From IMG/VR virus record IMGVR_UViG_3300005288_000020, positions 132-43,566 of that record: a stretch of DNA of 43,435 bases; one strand, 5' to 3'. The notes under the pieces were generated by a model. The model was not told the DNA's origin. It made no database searches and worked only from the letters and a program-made list of their open reading frames with translations. The DNA is from a virus. Of this stretch, positions 466 through 34,534 are shown in pieces (position 1 is the first letter of the stretch; each line of letters begins with the position of its first letter). Both the position numbers and the translations under genes were made by a program.

Positions 466-959
466 GCGTACAAGGCGGTAATGCGATTAACCACGGCGTC
501 GCGTATGCGGGCATGGTCTCCACCGGTTTTCAACTGCTGAACAGCGTGTCGAAGCTGAACAAAGGCACCGTGAACATTCCGTTCGGTACTGGCGTTGTGA
601 CCGACGGTGACGACGGTGCGAAAGTTCCGGTCTCTGCGTCCACCGCTGCGAACTTCGTCGGCGTGATCAAGCGTGAGCTGAACCGCGCTTACACCGCCAC
701 CGATGTCGTCGGCGCGGTTGCCAAGTACGACATGACCGTTGTGACCTCGGGCGAGATCTGGGTGACCGCGTTCGTCGCAGTGACCAAGGACCAACCGGTT
801 TACCTGATCGTCGGTGACGGTACTGGTACCAACCAAGGCAAGTTCACCAACATTGTTGGCGCTGCTGCGACCCTGGCGGTACTCGTACCAGATGCAAAAT
901 GGACCAGTTCGGCGGGTGCCGGTGCGCTGGCTAAAATTTCTCTGAACATCGGGGGCTGA
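462..959 (+). CDS. Structural cement (capsid decoration) protein
   Basis: This 165-residue protein is rich in Gly, Ala, Val and Thr and alternates short beta-strand-like segments, with no signal peptide or TM helix. It begins MSVQGGNAINHG and carries the pattern AVAKYDMTVVTSGEIWV typical of phage cement/decoration proteins encoded just upstream of DUF2184 major capsid proteins. Such proteins bind the outer capsid and stabilise the expanded head. The start overlaps the preceding stop by four bases and the gene is followed two bases later by the capsid gene, so the three are probably co-translated at high level. Function is inferred from family resemblance and position. Confidence 0.75.
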   Translation: MSVQGGNAINHGVAYAGMVSTGFQLLNSVSKLNKGTVNIPFGTGVVTDGDDGAKVPVSASTAANFVGVIKRELNRAYTATDVVGAVAKYDMTVVTSGEIWVTAFVAVTKDQPVYLIVGDGTGTNQGKFTNIVGAAATLAVLVPDAKWTSSAGAGALAKISLNIGG

Positions 960-961
960 TC

Positions 962-1993
962 ATGACTCAGCGCACTAAGATTTCTGTAGCCGTAGCCGAC
1001 GCATACGCTGAACGCAACGGTCTCGCCAAAGGTCACCAAGTGACGTTCACCGACGGTCTCCCGACCGTGGATGACGGTCTGGCGTTCTACATTTCGCAAC
1101 TGGCGAATCTTGAAGCTAAGATTTACCAAGCGAAATACACCGCCATCACCTTCGCTGAACTGATCCCGGTCAACACCAACATTCCGGAATGGGCTGATTC
1201 GTGGGACTACATCTCCTACGACGCAGTGACCGTCGGTAAGTTCATCGGCTCCAGCGCCGACGACCTGCCAAACGTTGCCATCGCCGCGAACAAAACCTCG
1301 GTGCCAATCGGTTACGCTGGTAACAGCTACGATTACAGCCTGGACGAGCTGCGCAAATCGCAACAACTGCGCATCCCGCTGGACACCACCAAGGCTCAGG
1401 CTGCGTTCCGTGGTTCGCAGGAACACATCCAGCGCGTGGCTTACTTCGGTGACGCCGCTCGCAACATGACCGGCCTGTTCAACAACGCCAACGTTCAGCT
1501 CGATTCGTCGACTGTCGACTGGTACAACGCTGCCACCACCGGTAACCAGATCGTTCAGGACATGAACACCCTGCTGACCAAAGTGTGGATCAACTCGGCG
1601 AACGTTCACGTACCGAACGTACTGGTCATGGACTCGGCGCGTTACGCGTTCATCTCCAGCAAGCGTATGGAAACCGGTACCGACACCACCGTGTTGGAGT
1701 TCTTCCTGCGCAACAACCTGTACAAGAACCTGACCGGTCGTGATCTGCGCGTGGTCCCACGTCTGCAACTGTCCGCCGCACAACTCGCCGCTGGTGGCGT
1801 GTCGAACGGTTCGAAAGACCGGATGATGGCGTACGAACTCAACGACGAGAACCTGGGCATGGTCCAACCAGTGCCATGGCGTGCGCTTGCCCCTCAGATG
1901 CGCGGCCTGAACGTGTTCGTTCCCGCCGAGTACAAAACGAGTGGGGTAGAACTGAGATACCTTTTCAGCGCGGCCTATCGCGATTCGATCTAA
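962..1993 (+). CDS. Major capsid protein (DUF2184 family)
   Basis: This 343-residue protein forms the icosahedral shell. It resembles DUF2184 HK97-fold capsid proteins: an N-terminal region with EAKIYQAKYTAITFAELIPV, a central AAFRGSQEHIQRVAYFGDAA segment (the YFGD-x-x-x-x-x-x-G pattern introducing a target-binding loop), and a C-terminal region ending VELRYLFSAAYRDSI. Codon use is strongly biased to C-ending codons, as expected of the most highly expressed gene. A strong factor-independent terminator follows directly, giving the capsid transcript a defined 3' end. Confidence 0.88.
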   Translation: MTQRTKISVAVADAYAERNGLAKGHQVTFTDGLPTVDDGLAFYISQLANLEAKIYQAKYTAITFAELIPVNTNIPEWADSWDYISYDAVTVGKFIGSSADDLPNVAIAANKTSVPIGYAGNSYDYSLDELRKSQQLRIPLDTTKAQAAFRGSQEHIQRVAYFGDAARNMTGLFNNANVQLDSSTVDWYNAATTGNQIVQDMNTLLTKVWINSANVHVPNVLVMDSARYAFISSKRMETGTDTTVLEFFLRNNLYKNLTGRDLRVVPRLQLSAAQLAAGGVSNGSKDRMMAYELNDENLGMVQPVPWRALAPQMRGLNVFVPAEYKTSGVELRYLFSAAYRDSI

Positions 1994-2010
1994 GGTAAAT
2001 GCTTGACAAG

Positions 2011-2032
2011 CCCCGCTTCGGCGGGGTTTTTT
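2011..2032 (+). terminator. Rho-independent terminator after major capsid gene
   Basis: Perfect stem CCCCGC/GCGGGG with a TTCG tetraloop followed by TTTTTT. It lies 18 bases after the capsid stop codon. The stop of the converging HNH gene (2031-2033) falls in its T tract. Confidence 0.93.
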
Positions 2033-2696
2033 ATTGTGATACGAAGCGGTTACCCTTCGCCAGATTCTCGTGCGCCCACGGGGGTTGCAGGTTCCACAAT
2101 GCATTGATGATCGATGGGTCGGTCACACCGAAAAGAGTCATGAGACTTACTGGGATTTTGTGATCAATATGCCACTCACCGTAATTCGCCCATGTCATCC
2201 CAGGTTTGAACTGTTGTTCGAGGTGTAACCTGAGGTCGTTACTCCCGTATCCTAAAATGTCTCGAGACGGTCGTCTTCTTTTGACGTCACCCGTTGCGGT
2301 CATTACACGGCGAACCATTTCTCGCATTTGAATCGACATTCTGAACACTGGATCGGTTGCCCGTCGGTGACTGTGGTATGCGTATTCTTTCTTACGGTTA
2401 TGAGTCTGATCACGCCACTTCTGTTTCGAAGCCTTCACCCTGTCAGGATTCTTGAGTCTATGCGCACGTGTCTCAGCTGCGAGCCTTTCACGGTTGGTGT
2501 CACGATACGATTGCTTATATTCGGCCACTTTGTCTGCGTTTGCGAGTTTGTGGCGGGTAACGGTATTGAATACGCACGCCGTGCATTTGGTGTTCTTTAG
2601 GTAACGCGTCGAAAGATGTCCATGCTTACACGGAACACCTGTAAAATAGTGAGTCAAGCCAGCAGATGTAGCGTCGGCGCGGGAGATGATTTCCAT
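2031..2696 (-). CDS. HNH homing-type endonuclease, antisense within the head operon
   Basis: A 221-residue protein with an N-terminal Cys/His cluster (PCKHGHLSTRY and CTACV), a long basic helical middle, and a C-terminal HNH core: WHIDHKIPV, then ALWNLQP, then HENLAKGNR, which supply the H-H-N residues. It probably nicks or cuts DNA as a free-standing homing endonuclease. Its ribosome-binding site is CGAGGTCA just before the ATG. It sits between the capsid gene and the next head gene in the opposite orientation, and lacks any dyad-type promoter of the kind used elsewhere in this window. Codon use is less C-biased and more AT-rich than the capsid genes, consistent with acquisition. Confidence 0.85.
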   Translation of the reverse strand: MEIISRADATSAGLTHYFTGVPCKHGHLSTRYLKNTKCTACVFNTVTRHKLANADKVAEYKQSYRDTNRERLAAETRAHRLKNPDRVKASKQKWRDQTHNRKKEYAYHSHRRATDPVFRMSIQMREMVRRVMTATGDVKRRRPSRDILGYGSNDLRLHLEQQFKPGMTWANYGEWHIDHKIPVSLMTLFGVTDPSIINALWNLQPPWAHENLAKGNRFVSQ

Positions 2697-2729
2697 CGGG
2701 TGTGACCTCGGTCAAAAGGAGTCAGGGGA

Positions 2730-2843
2730 ATGCGGAAGGCGCTGACTAAGCGCTGTTCAACTGGCCGGTCTATCCGCACCGCTACATTGACACCGAGTGA
2801 CCATCCTGTCAACATCGAACCCACTCCAACGCATCCGAGGTAA
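2730..2843 (+). CDS. Possible 37-residue ORF in the gap after the HNH gene
   Basis: The 153-base gap between the HNH start and the next head gene contains an ATG preceded by AGGAG at eight bases and followed by 37 codons, ending seven bases before the next start. The peptide is basic and low in hydrophobic residues and resembles nothing I know. Another frame reads LFNWPVYPHRYIDTE near its end, so this may equally be the remnant of a gene broken when the HNH gene arrived. Coding status is doubtful. Confidence 0.2.
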   Translation: MRKALTKRCSTGRSIRTATLTPSDHPVNIEPTPTHPR

Positions 2844-2849
2844 CACCAC

Positions 2850-3158
2850 ATGCTACTGCGAAACAATTCGAAACGCCTGATCACCATCAACGCGCCGATG
2901 ACCGAGAGTGGTTATTCCACGTTCTACGACATCAAGCCCGGCGACAACCCAGCGGTTGAAGTGCCGGACGAGTTCTGCAAGTCCGACTTTGTCAAAAACC
3001 TGCTCAATACCGGCGACCTGACCCGCATGACCCCGGCTGAATCCGACAGCGACGACGTGGACTCCCTGCGCGACGAAGCGATGCTGCTCGACATCAAGGT
3101 CGACAAGAAGTGGGACGCTGCGCGCATCCAGTCCGAGATTGACAAAGCGAACGCGTGA
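2850..3158 (+). CDS. Small head-module protein with HeH/SAP-like C-terminus
   Basis: A 102-residue acidic protein. The C-terminal stretch from about residue 72 (SLRDEAMLLDIKVDKKWD, then ARIQSEIDKA) has the helix-extended-loop-helix spacing seen in HeH/SAP-like domains of small phage head proteins. The N-terminal half (residues 1-50) may form a compact beta fold that binds the virion. It precedes a strong terminator, so it closes the first head transcript. Its exact role is unknown; position suggests a minor virion component or head-closure accessory. Confidence 0.65.
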   Translation: MLLRNNSKRLITINAPMTESGYSTFYDIKPGDNPAVEVPDEFCKSDFVKNLLNTGDLTRMTPAESDSDDVDSLRDEAMLLDIKVDKKWDAARIQSEIDKANA

Positions 3159-3200
3159 CGGTAATGTCATGACTCACGTCAGTGTTGCCCTGTAACAAAT

Positions 3201-3240
3201 AAAAACCCCAGTCATCCTAACCGGTGCGTCTGGGGTTTTT
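3201..3240 (+). terminator. Bidirectional Rho-independent terminator
   Basis: Inverted repeat AAAAACCCCAG ... CTGGGGTTTTT with an 18-base loop. A T tract is present on both strands, so it can stop transcripts in both directions. It lies 42 bases after the preceding gene. Confidence 0.85.
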
Positions 3241-3286
3241 ACCGTCTGTCATGCTATGCTATGGCGAATTGACAGGGGACCACATC

Positions 3287-3871
3287 ATGGCCTTCAAAGA
3301 TGTACTATCGCTTGACGCAATGTTCCTGCGCATTACCAACGGGCTGCGCGCACTCACGTCCCAGGACTACACGTCGGTAAATGTGAAGAAAGGTGTCCAG
3401 TACGAAATCGCCAGTAACACTGCCGCGCTCGCTGACGGTGCGAACATCGACACGATTTTCATCACCGGTCCCCTCCCCGTCATCATCAAAAGTCGCATCG
3501 TGAAGTTCAACGGCACCAGTATCACCACTCGCGTCTATCGCGCACCTACGCATAGCGGTGGTGCAGTCGTCCCGTATTTCAACCTGAACGATAAAGACCC
3601 GGTTGTCGGTGGCGTGGTTATCCGTACGGGCGTAACGGTAACAGCGGTCGGTACTGAGTTCGGAGCCCCGACATTCGATGTGGGTTCAGCGGGTCAAGGT
3701 AACTCAAGCCTCAGCACCTACTCGGTTACCGGTATCGAACGAGTGCTGCGCCCTAACACCACGTACTTACAGCGGATCACGAACGATTCAGGCGCGGTAC
3801 AGCGCGTCACGTCGTATCTGACGTGGTACGAAGGCGACCCCGATTTCCCTAATACGGACTACACATCATGA
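3287..3871 (+). CDS. Hypothetical virion protein of the head module
   Basis: A 194-residue protein. I chose the ATG at 3287 because CAGGGGA lies eight bases upstream and an in-frame upstream extension would run into the terminator. It is rich in Thr, Val and Gly with regularly spaced hydrophobic residues, suggesting beta structure, and has no TM segment. Features include [20 protein letters not shown] near residue 40 and a C-terminal [16 protein letters not shown]. The stop overlaps the next ATG by four bases. A minor capsid, head fibre base or decoration role is possible from position; I do not recognise the family. Confidence 0.75.
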
Positions 3872-31431: not shown

Positions 31432-31676
31432 CGTTTATCGTAACGGATCGCTTTGCGGTCGCTCTTCTGACTTATCAGATGAAGAAATTTCAACAAGGTC
31501 TCGATGCTGATCAGCTCGAATGGATGCTCCCGGCACTTGAGTCAGTTCGTCAACGTCTCAGCGCTCACGAAATTGATGACGGTGAAAACTGTCGGGGACT
31601 GGGTGTTGATCATCGGTGGCAGACACAGCCGAGCGGTCGAGTGTTCTGCACCAAATGCGGGGAAGAGCGCAAATGA
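31428..31676 (+). CDS. Hypothetical protein with C-terminal zinc-finger-like end
   Basis: An 82-residue protein: helical N-terminus (FAVALLTYQMKKFQQGLDAD) and C-terminal HRWQTQPSGRVFCTKCGEE with one CxxC pair and a nearby His/Cys. ATGA overlap with the helicase gene, so expression is coupled. Function unknown. Confidence 0.68.
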   Translation: MTFIVTDRFAVALLTYQMKKFQQGLDADQLEWMLPALESVRQRLSAHEIDDGENCRGLGVDHRWQTQPSGRVFCTKCGEERK

Positions 31677-34534
31677 CCGTCGCTCTTCATCGAACGTTAC
31701 TGGCTGACGCGGTTGCACGGATCACGTTGCGCCCGTATCAGCAGAAACTACGCGACGACGTGGAATCAGCGTGGGCGATGGGTGCGCGAAACGTTCTCGC
31801 GGTGTTGCCCACGGGTGGCGGTAAAACGGCGCTGTTCTCGACGATCATGGCGGACGAAACCCACGCATCGTGTGCCGTCGCTCACCGTCAGGAACTTGTC
31901 AGCCAGATCAGTTTGGCGCTCGCCCGCAACCGTGTGCGCCACCGGATCATCGGACCACAGTCGGTCGTCAAGATGATCGTACGGTTGCACATGGAAGAGG
32001 TCGGCGCGTCCTATTACGACCCGTCCAGCAAATGCGCGGTCGCCGGGATCGATACGTTGGTGCGTCGTGGCGATCAGCTCGCGTCGTGGTTGCCGACCGT
32101 CAAACTGTGGGTGATGGACGAATGTTTTGTCGCCGGGACATTGATCGACGGTAAGCCGATATCCGATATCCGGATCGGCGATGTGGTTACCGCGTTCAAT
32201 GAAACTACGGGCGAATTTGAACCCCGCACTGTGATGCGCCTGTTTAAAAATCCTGCGCCCGAACACATGATTCGTGTAACTACGCAGTTTCGTCATGTGT
32301 TACATTGCACAAATGGGCACCCCTTCTGGACCAAACGAGGATGGGTTAATGCCCAGGACTTGATGGTTACGGATGAGGTATTGGTGAATGATTTACACAT
32401 GCACGTACTGCAACACGGTTTTGAGCGAGACGAGCGAGTCACAACGGTATCGATTCCGCAAGAATGGAACAATCTTCTGTCTGGGGTCGTGCGGGTACAA
32501 GATGAGGGACGAGCAACGAGCGAAGACACGGGTGGTGACACCATTGGTTTCGAAGTTGACCACTCGTACGGCGTCGAAGCCGGGGAAAACAGAAGTGACG
32601 TCGTGCACATGGTGTCAGCAGCTACTCGAGATATCGGGTTGGGCGCGGTCACAGTTTCTGCGGGTGGGTCGGGCGTATTGCAACCGGACATGCTCGGACA
32701 ATTACAGATCGAAAGTATCATCCGAAACAATGAGTCGGACAAACGCGAAACATGCGTCCGCTCGGATGAAAACCAACAACCCAATGGCTCGTTCGGAAAT
32801 TCGCGAAAAGGTTCGGCAGACCCACATTGCGTCGGGTCATCAGCCAGTGCTGAAAGGTGGGAACGGGCGACCTCCGACGGTTCCAGAAATGACGCTGTAC
32901 TACATGCTGATGTCGGAGGGGTTCTCGCTTCAAGTAATCGAAAAGACTGGCCCGTATTGGACAGCGAAAGGTTGCCCGAGGCATTACAAAATCGACTGCG
33001 GGAATCGAGAGTTGATGATTGCAATCGAAGCGGACGGTGTCAGCCATTCGACACTTGCTCGACAGGAGCAAGACGTTCGGAAAACTGCGTGCCTGGTTGG
33101 GTTGGGTTGGACAGTATTGAGATTTTCAAATCATCAGATCTTGAACGAACCGGAAATGGTGTACACGACGGTCATGTCTACAATTTCGAAGTCGAAGGAT
33201 TGCACACATACGTCGCCAACGGTGTGACTGTGCACAACTGCCACCACGTACTCAAGGACAATAAATGGGGTAAGGGCACGTCGATGTTCCCGAACGCTCG
33301 GGGCTTGGGTGTGACTGCCACCCCATCACGCGCCGATGGTAACGGCCTGGGTCGTCATGCTGATGGTGTTATGGACGTGATGGTGATCGGCCCGTCGATG
33401 CGTGAACTGATCGATATGAAATTCCTCACCGATTACAAACTGTTCGCGCCGAAGTCTGACTTTGACCGGTCCAGTCTGACCAAGTCGATCAGTAAAACCA
33501 CAGGGGAAATTTCCGCGCATGAGTCGAGTAAGGCCGTCAGTACATCGTCACTCGTGGCCCATGCTGAGAAAGGTCAGGTGGTGGGTGACGTTGTCCGGAC
33601 GTATCAAAAGCTGATACCCGGGCTGCGTACCATCGTGTTTGCCCCAGACGTCGCCACGGCGTATCAGCTTGAGGCGGAATACATCGCGGCGGGTATCCCG
33701 GCGAAGTGCATTCACGGTGATATGGACGACCTCGAACGTAGTCATGCAACGGGGGATTTCAAACGCGGAAAGACACTAGTTCTCATTAACGTGGCCCTTC
33801 TGGACGAGGGCTACGATTGCCCAGCGATTCAGGCAGTACAGGACGTTGCCGCCACCGAGTCGTTCGGGCGGTTCGTGCAGCGCGCCGGTCGGATGCTGCG
33901 TCTGATGGACGGTAAGGAGTTCGGCATTTACGTCGACCACGTGGGGAACATCGCCCGTCACGCGACCGTCGTGCATTACCCGGATCAGTCACGTGTGGAA
34001 ATTTGTCACCGTGAGTGGACGCTGGACCGTCGGGAACGTCGCAGCGCGGGTAAGAGCGAGATCAGCGACACCCGAACATGTAATACCTGTACAGGTACGT
34101 TCCCACGCTTTCTCGACGCGTGTCCGTACTGTGGCGAGCCGATCCCGGCACCTGCACAACGCTCGTCTGTCGAGTGGGTCGATGGCGACCTGTACGAACT
34201 GGACGCCGCTACGCTCGCGACGATGCGCGCAGCCATTGCCCGTGTGGATATGGCACCGGAGGATTACCGTAACCAGTTGGTCGCGCAAGGGTGTCCGCAA
34301 CTGGGCGTACTGGGCAACGTGAAACGCCTCGTGGCGACTCAGGAGATCGTGGCGCAGTTGCGTGAGGCTGAGGCGGTATGGGCGGGTTACGAGCGCGCAG
34401 CCGGACTCAGTGACCGGGAGATCATGCGCAAGTTCTTCAGCATGTTCGGGGTGGACCTCTGGACCGCGCAAACGTGGAAAGCCGCCGACATGACGGCATT
34501 AATCGAACGAATCAACGGGAGTATTAGACGATGA
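31673..34534 (+). CDS. DEAD/DEAH-box (SF2) helicase with intein in the DEAH motif
   Basis: Precursor of 953 residues; 581 after removal of the 372-residue intein. The helicase has Walker A LPTGGGKT (~residue 45), motif Ia (CAVAHRQELVSQI), the Walker B/DEAH motif interrupted as WVMDE-intein-CHHVL, motif III (GVTATPSRADG), and the C-terminal domain with FVQRAGRMLRL (motif VI). A zinc-ribbon CNTCTGTFPRFLDACPYCGE follows. It is a UvsW/RecG-like SF2 remodeller probably used in replication restart. Start at 31673 overlaps the previous stop. Splicing is needed to restore DECHH. Confidence 0.87.
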   Translation: MTVALHRTLLADAVARITLRPYQQKLRDDVESAWAMGARNVLAVLPTGGGKTALFSTIMADETHASCAVAHRQELVSQISLALARNRVRHRIIGPQSVVKMIVRLHMEEVGASYYDPSSKCAVAGIDTLVRRGDQLASWLPTVKLWVMDECFVAGTLIDGKPISDIRIGDVVTAFNETTGEFEPRTVMRLFKNPAPEHMIRVTTQFRHVLHCTNGHPFWTKRGWVNAQDLMVTDEVLVNDLHMHVLQHGFERDERVTTVSIPQEWNNLLSGVVRVQDEGRATSEDTGGDTIGFEVDHSYGVEAGENRSDVVHMVSAATRDIGLGAVTVSAGGSGVLQPDMLGQLQIESIIRNNESDKRETCVRSDENQQPNGSFGNSRKGSADPHCVGSSASAERWERATSDGSRNDAVLHADVGGVLASSNRKDWPVLDSERLPEALQNRLRESRVDDCNRSGRCQPFDTCSTGARRSENCVPGWVGLDSIEIFKSSDLERTGNGVHDGHVYNFEVEGLHTYVANGVTVHNCHHVLKDNKWGKGTSMFPNARGLGVTATPSRADGNGLGRHADGVMDVMVIGPSMRELIDMKFLTDYKLFAPKSDFDRSSLTKSISKTTGEISAHESSKAVSTSSLVAHAEKGQVVGDVVRTYQKLIPGLRTIVFAPDVATAYQLEAEYIAAGIPAKCIHGDMDDLERSHATGDFKRGKTLVLINVALLDEGYDCPAIQAVQDVAATESFGRFVQRAGRMLRLMDGKEFGIYVDHVGNIARHATVVHYPDQSRVEICHREWTLDRRERRSAGKSEISDTRTCNTCTGTFPRFLDACPYCGEPIPAPAQRSSVEWVDGDLYELDAATLATMRAAIARVDMAPEDYRNQLVAQGCPQLGVLGNVKRLVATQEIVAQLREAEAVWAGYERAAGLSDREIMRKFFSMFGVDLWTAQTWKAADMTALIERINGSIRR
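32123..33238 (+). mobile_element. Intein (372 residues) with overlapping endonuclease gene
   Basis: It starts with Cys1 (CFVAGTLIDGKPISDIRIGD, block A), has block B around HVLHCTNGHPFWTKRGWVNA with a TxxH-like His, and ends with block F/G GHVYNFEVEGLHTYV and ANGVTVHN followed by Cys+1. Insertion is exactly between DE and CHH of the helicase. No LAGLIDADG or HNH motif is visible in the intein frame; residues ~90-340 are low-complexity. That region instead encodes the nuclease of 32388-33227 in another frame. Confidence 0.88.
32388..33227 (+). CDS. Vsr-like homing endonuclease encoded out of frame inside the intein
   Basis: A 279-residue protein in the +1 frame relative to the helicase. ATG 32388 has GAGG nine bases upstream. 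Two treble-clef/zinc motifs occur at the start (CTYCNTVL ... FCLGSC; CTWCQQLL ... YCNRTC), then a NUMOD-like NNPMARSEIREKVRQTH, then a Vsr/EDxHD-type nuclease: PEMTLYYMLMSEG, IAIEADGVSHST, EQDVRK, LGWTVLRFSNHQIL. E, D, H and D are all present. Same class as I-Bth0305I. The stop is nine bases before the final intein Asn codon, so the nuclease and the intein's C-terminal splicing block share DNA. Confidence 0.87.
   Translation: MIYTCTYCNTVLSETSESQRYRFRKNGTIFCLGSCGYKMRDEQRAKTRVVTPLVSKLTTRTASKPGKTEVTSCTWCQQLLEISGWARSQFLRVGRAYCNRTCSDNYRSKVSSETMSRTNAKHASARMKTNNPMARSEIREKVRQTHIASGHQPVLKGGNGRPPTVPEMTLYYMLMSEGFSLQVIEKTGPYWTAKGCPRHYKIDCGNRELMIAIEADGVSHSTLARQEQDVRKTACLVGLGWTVLRFSNHQILNEPEMVYTTVMSTISKSKDCTHTSPTV

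Follow-up and report, generated by a model that had tools for sequence, protein, structure and literature searches.

A phage helicase intein with a predicted homing endonuclease encoded by a fully overlapping +1-frame gene

The window, a 43,435-nt stretch of viral DNA (IMG/VR record IMGVR_UViG_3300005288_000020), contains the gene for an SF2 DNA helicase. Translation of the open reading frames yields one uninterrupted helicase frame from the ATG at 31673 to the stop ending at 34534, i.e. the gene is not fractured in the window. As a whole, the helicase matches the phrog_16 DNA helicase family (6.6e-70). The neighbourhood (9472-39033) is that of a contractile-tailed phage with tail sheath, baseplate, DNA polymerase, exonuclease and primase genes. 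The following features were assigned:

31673..32122, + strand: N-extein (150 aa) of an SF2 (ResIII/RadD-like) phage DNA helicase, from Walker A to motif II ('...VMDE'); based on the frame, Pfam, phrog_16 and the intein-less AAM22 homologue
32123..33238, + strand: class-1-like intein (372 aa; Cys1, TxxH, His-Asn, Cys+1) between DE and CHH of motif II
32123..32416, + strand: N-terminal Hint half in the helicase frame, intein residues 1-98; pLDDT >90 up to about residue 90
32375..32379, + strand: Shine-Dalgarno-like GAGGT, 8 nt before the nuclease ATG, within the intein codons for D-E-V
32388..33227, + strand: +1-frame ORF (279 aa), predicted homing endonuclease; based on DUF559, fold match and conservation
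32420..33088, + strand: intein residues about 100-322, predicted disordered linker and apparent stop-free shadow of the nuclease frame
33089..33238, + strand: C-terminal Hint half with blocks F and G, '...VYNFEVEGLHTYVANGVTVHN'; its first 139 nt are shared with the nuclease tail
33239..34534, + strand: C-extein (431 aa) and stop, starting with Cys+1-His-His

The intein begins with C1 and closes with ...VHN, followed by C(+1)HH; its TxxH motif reads TNGH. All class 1 residues are present (C1, T63..H66, H371-N372 and C+1), and C1, T6, H66, Y353, V370 and N372 are invariant across 39 relatives. The two translated products were searched separately, as the original prediction had proposed. In the helicase frame, helicase models were accompanied by PT-HINT (Pfam, 2.5e-10), Intein_splicing (Pfam, 4.6e-7, short of the curated cut-off of the model) and intein_Cterm (NCBIfam, 2.8e-6), and DUF559 appeared in the other frame. 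A profile of the intein frame matched solved Hint domains with 1.4e-19, and Foldseek returned 2lwy as well as the Ssp DnaB and Mtu RecA inteins (E 3e-6 to 6e-5). In the AlphaFold model, order is confined to the two Hint halves, and the region between them is disordered. The predicted intein at 32123-33238 in an open helicase frame was thus confirmed with the same coordinates. Helicases with and without the insert were also aligned. Empty sites (DEAHH or DECHH) were found in Pantoea phage AAM22, whose C-extein is 61% identical to that of the window, and in the Vibrio phages 141O35-1 and 1.024.O. They are precise, with no gap at DE^C, so that exact excision would leave an intact helicase. Taken together, the sequence strongly argues for a class-1-like intein that is predicted to splice.

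The ORF at 32388-33227 matches DUF559 (Pfam, E = 2.2e-11). Its product comprises two Cys-rich, zinc-finger-like modules, a conserved central region and a C-terminal DUF559/EDxHD (Vsr-like) catalytic domain. The AlphaFold model has a pLDDT of 90, and 3r3p, the catalytic domain of I-Bth0305I, is its best Foldseek match (6.8e-4, TMt 0.71), followed by a DUF559 protein, 3hrl. At the sequence level, similarity to I-Bth0305I is weak (profile E = 0.006). Catalytic-type residues are invariant among the relatives of the nuclease, and the first Cys module is absent from several of them. The postulated Vsr-like nuclease with its own ATG and GAGGT in an overlapping frame was hence recovered, and site-specific cleavage by an EDxHD homing endonuclease is predicted with good reason. 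The ORF double-codes intein residues about 89-369. Dual reading, originally said to include block F/G, can be specified as intein-only: it stays within the intein, and the exteins are single-coded. A canonical intein containing a homing endonuclease was ruled out, since the splicing domains and the nuclease are read in different frames, the latter in +1.

A search of 50,697 phage records yielded 40 with the nuclease. Carriers comprise the Vibrio phages CP-T1, K391, 1.088.O, the 1.194.O/1.27x group, 104E43.1 and 159E43, Pseudomonas phage MR14 and Corynebacterium phage phi673. In every annotated region inspected, a single unbroken annotated CDS contains the nuclease in its +1 frame. Scans of IMG/VR and GTDB species genomes brought the total to 166 non-redundant loci at 95% identity, and in 151 of these a single open frame covers both Hint halves and the nuclease is in +1; contig ends cut two further loci. 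The second alternative frame encodes the nuclease in none of the joined loci. The host genes of overlapping inteins encode SF2 helicases, SNF2-like ATPases and DnaX-like clamp loaders, and the insertion point is almost always located directly after DE of motif II/Walker B (DE^C). One candidate, L097, was discarded as a generic DUF559 gene. The suggestion that the arrangement is a stable way to encode both proteins at one locus is borne out by these 151 of 166 loci, which also make the arrangement more widespread than first assumed. Conversely, it had been considered that homologues might normally be split by a stop or frameshift or that the +1 frame might lack conservation. Neither a stop nor a frameshift is general among the relatives, and the +1 frame shows conservation.

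Selection on the two frames was assessed by comparing host-frame stops with the number expected after synonymous codon shuffling of the nuclease. The window ORF has 0 host-frame stops versus 9.3 expected. Across the 151 overlapping loci, 0 were found versus about 1482 expected; this joined-locus count conditions on openness, and the informative controls are the free-standing, fractured and in-frame relatives, where stops are near expectation. A separate count on 75 loci agrees with this deficit. The third frame of the same 151 loci contains 2723 stops versus 2518 expected, i.e. it is unconstrained. Furthermore, T at nuclease third positions drops exactly where a host-frame stop would arise: it amounts to 1.1% before AA, AG or GA versus 36% elsewhere. 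In close pairs, substitutions in the overlap land on third positions of nuclease codons, equivalent to first positions in the host frame; for the pair L008/L014, 5, 1 and 35 substitutions fall on nuclease codon positions one, two and three, respectively. This means that conservation acts on the nuclease protein and that drift in the intein middle is largely tolerated provided that no stop arises. The per-frame constraint check initially envisaged gave a clear outcome, with conserved first and second nuclease positions and an unconstrained third frame. Purifying selection acts on the nuclease, and both the openness and the splicing motifs of the intein frame are maintained. The intein middle is, as modelled, a stop-free disordered linker and a shadow of the nuclease frame, as had been anticipated for a middle shaped by the nuclease. 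Zero stops against 9.3 expected and the recurrence of the phase in 151 of 166 loci argue against a chance overlap, and chance or a mere shadow ORF was ruled out by conservation, substitution pattern, stop deficit and recurring phase.

How the nuclease is produced can be judged from its start region. Internal initiation is the likely route, in view of the enrichment of Shine-Dalgarno matches and of the TGA, ATG and GAGGT in the window. A match of at least 5 nt is present in 42% of the 151 loci versus 9% of a matched null, and one of at least 6 nt in 18.5% versus 1.6%. In about a third of the overlapping loci, none of the candidate ATGs has a match of at least 4 nt, and translation of some of these nucleases may depend on coupling, leaderless-like initiation or a frameshift. 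If ribosomes changed frame in a programmed manner while reading the helicase, the product could be an N-extein/N-intein/nuclease fusion that needs no separate initiation. Such frameshifting would account for the phase, which is always +1, and for a nuclease frame that is often open upstream (the profile start lies a median of 23 codons after the upstream stop). However, an in-frame TGA abuts the nuclease ATG in the window, and CP-T1 and L005 carry an in-frame stop one codon ahead of theirs. The conserved start Met and the Shine-Dalgarno enrichment favour initiation, too, and in the fractured clade described below the nuclease is an ordinary separate gene starting inside the N-half. Frameshifting is consequently regarded as unlikely.

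Two further objections concern the locus itself. The ORF might encode the remnant of a nuclease that has ceased to drive homing, or it might serve another role, e.g. in repression or DNA repair, next to a real intein. Its cleavage activity is a prediction, and the absence of the first Cys module from several relatives would fit such a reading. The strong conservation of first and second nuclease positions in close pairs, the invariant catalytic-type residues and the high-confidence predicted fold speak against it and render it very improbable. Alternatively, the open helicase frame might be a sequencing or assembly artefact hiding a stop or frameshift in a truly fractured insert. Fractured relatives (L034, L044, L139 and L149) do exist, and one overlapping locus, L081, has a single in-frame TAG. 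Yet, 151 non-redundant loci are equally open, among them those of the isolated phages CP-T1, phi673, MR14 and K391, so that sequencing error or a normally split locus was rejected and an artefact has a vanishingly small probability. More than 150 distinct relatives with the same arrangement indicate a real, selected mobile-element design and no accident. The TAG of L081 (3249-3251) is located in the linker of a clamp-loader intein and may be the onset of a fracture, a stop codon that is suppressed, or an error.

The four fractured loci form one clade in the nuclease tree (99% SH-aLRT). In all of them, the nuclease shares 100 nt with the N-half and 90-117 nt with the C-half, measured from the first ATG codons, and the +1 phase is kept. 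Free-standing nucleases (L036, L092, L130, L145) are encoded directly upstream of SF2 helicase genes without insert; according to the tree, this state has up to three origins. The L092 helicase has an intact DESHH, and the helicase frame of L036 looks shifted just past DE. In-frame fused relatives were found only twice (L086 1645-3882 and L087 1489-3606) and are remote: a distant DUF559-type nuclease resides in frame within an intein of an apparent phage head morphogenesis gene. L088 (2210-5593) is a separate fractured locus composed of an N-half, a free nuclease and a C-half bearing a second small intein-like insert. Few state changes are needed on the nuclease tree. A single fractured clade that retained +1 overlaps at both ends suggests that fracture arose from an overlapping state; as the trees have no root and few well-supported deep branches, this direction is based on parsimony and the retained overlaps. 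The suggestion that the locus is an intermediate between a fused and a split intein appears not to hold, as the two in-frame relatives are remote and belong to another host gene and the fractured form looks derived.

Mobility of the overlapping intein is suggested by distribution and divergence. Between the Vibrio phages 1.194.O and 1.088.O, third positions differ at 4 of 86 sites in the single-coded part of the N-intein and at 194 of 408 sites in the C-extein. Between K391 and 1.194.O, divergence rises with distance downstream of the insert in a pattern resembling a co-conversion tract. Low intein divergence and the downstream gradient fit the prediction for homing. Ordinary recombination could mimic part of this; homing is regarded as probable. 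Vibrio phage PS65A.1 has a mini-intein without nuclease at the motif II site. It is the second of two inteins in one helicase (L102, CDS 596-3727), and the other, larger one is inserted in frame in Walker A (GGGK^C) and apparently contains a LAGLIDADG-type nuclease.

From these data, a three-step scheme is proposed. Read-through of the helicase mRNA would yield a precursor in which a long disordered linker connects two Hint halves that fold together; there is strong reason to expect that it splices precisely at DE^CHH and restores the helicase. Inside the N-terminal Hint half, the internal Shine-Dalgarno/ATG would also serve ribosomes as a +1-frame start, giving a free Vsr-like (EDxHD) nuclease of 279 aa. 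Alleles that lack the intein would be bound and cut by this nuclease in the conserved Walker-B/motif II DNA, and repair would copy the intein together with the overlapping nuclease gene. Selection would preserve the nuclease protein and, in the intein middle, mainly bar stop codons. Stops in the middle and a new C-half start might then turn the locus into a fractured gene, with the intein split and the nuclease free. With high probability, the locus is a mobile intein in which a fully overlapping gene, instead of a domain, provides the homing endonuclease. The broader proposal, a large and hitherto undescribed class of inteins that have a fully overlapping +1-frame nuclease gene with its own ribosome-binding site and are the source of fractured genes via linker stops and a new C-half start, is on balance slightly favoured.

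In the textbook view, an intein is a splicing domain fused to a nuclease domain. As in canonical LAGLIDADG or HNH inteins, Hint halves flank the coding region of a homing endonuclease at a conserved motif; in contrast to them, the nuclease here is a separate gene in another frame, outside the precursor polypeptide. Fractured genes, in which split inteins are accompanied by free Vsr-like nucleases, were reportedly described by Dassa et al. in 2009. They share the kind of nuclease located between intein halves, and the four fractured relatives have this form, whereas in the window the helicase is unbroken, the nuclease overlaps in +1 and splicing is predicted to occur in cis. With I-Bth0305I (EDxHD, PDB 3r3p), the window nuclease shares the fold of the catalytic domain, but I-Bth0305I is labelled a mobile intron protein in the PDB. 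In ShiLan, an out-of-frame HNH insertion was found in a phage DNA methylase; it lacks a detectable splicing domain, the nuclease lacks a detectable ribosome-binding site, and there are signs of homing (PMC11855218, 2025). Both cases have an alternate-frame nuclease inside an insertion that is open in the host frame and bears signs of homing. Unlike ShiLan, the window has a Hint intein and an EDxHD/Vsr-like nuclease, and the class often has a Shine-Dalgarno-like site and occurs in many P-loop NTPases. No splicing intein with a nuclease in an overlapping frame was found in the literature searched. With regard to overlapping frames, PMC11855218 cites a preprint on actinobacteriophage inteins of 'non-canonical architecture', which may be relevant and possibly contains a prior description.

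An intein and a nuclease made as separate proteins from the same DNA appear to be a third solution beside the fused and the split state, which gives a concrete way in which naturally split inteins and fractured genes could arise. In addition, more than 150 loci with a clean selection signature provide a well replicated case of overlapping genes. Many such nucleases are missed in current annotation, because the helicase CDS masks them. Two loci of the same nuclease family (L155 and L222) are located on a single viral contig, IMGVR_UViG_3300033144_006696.
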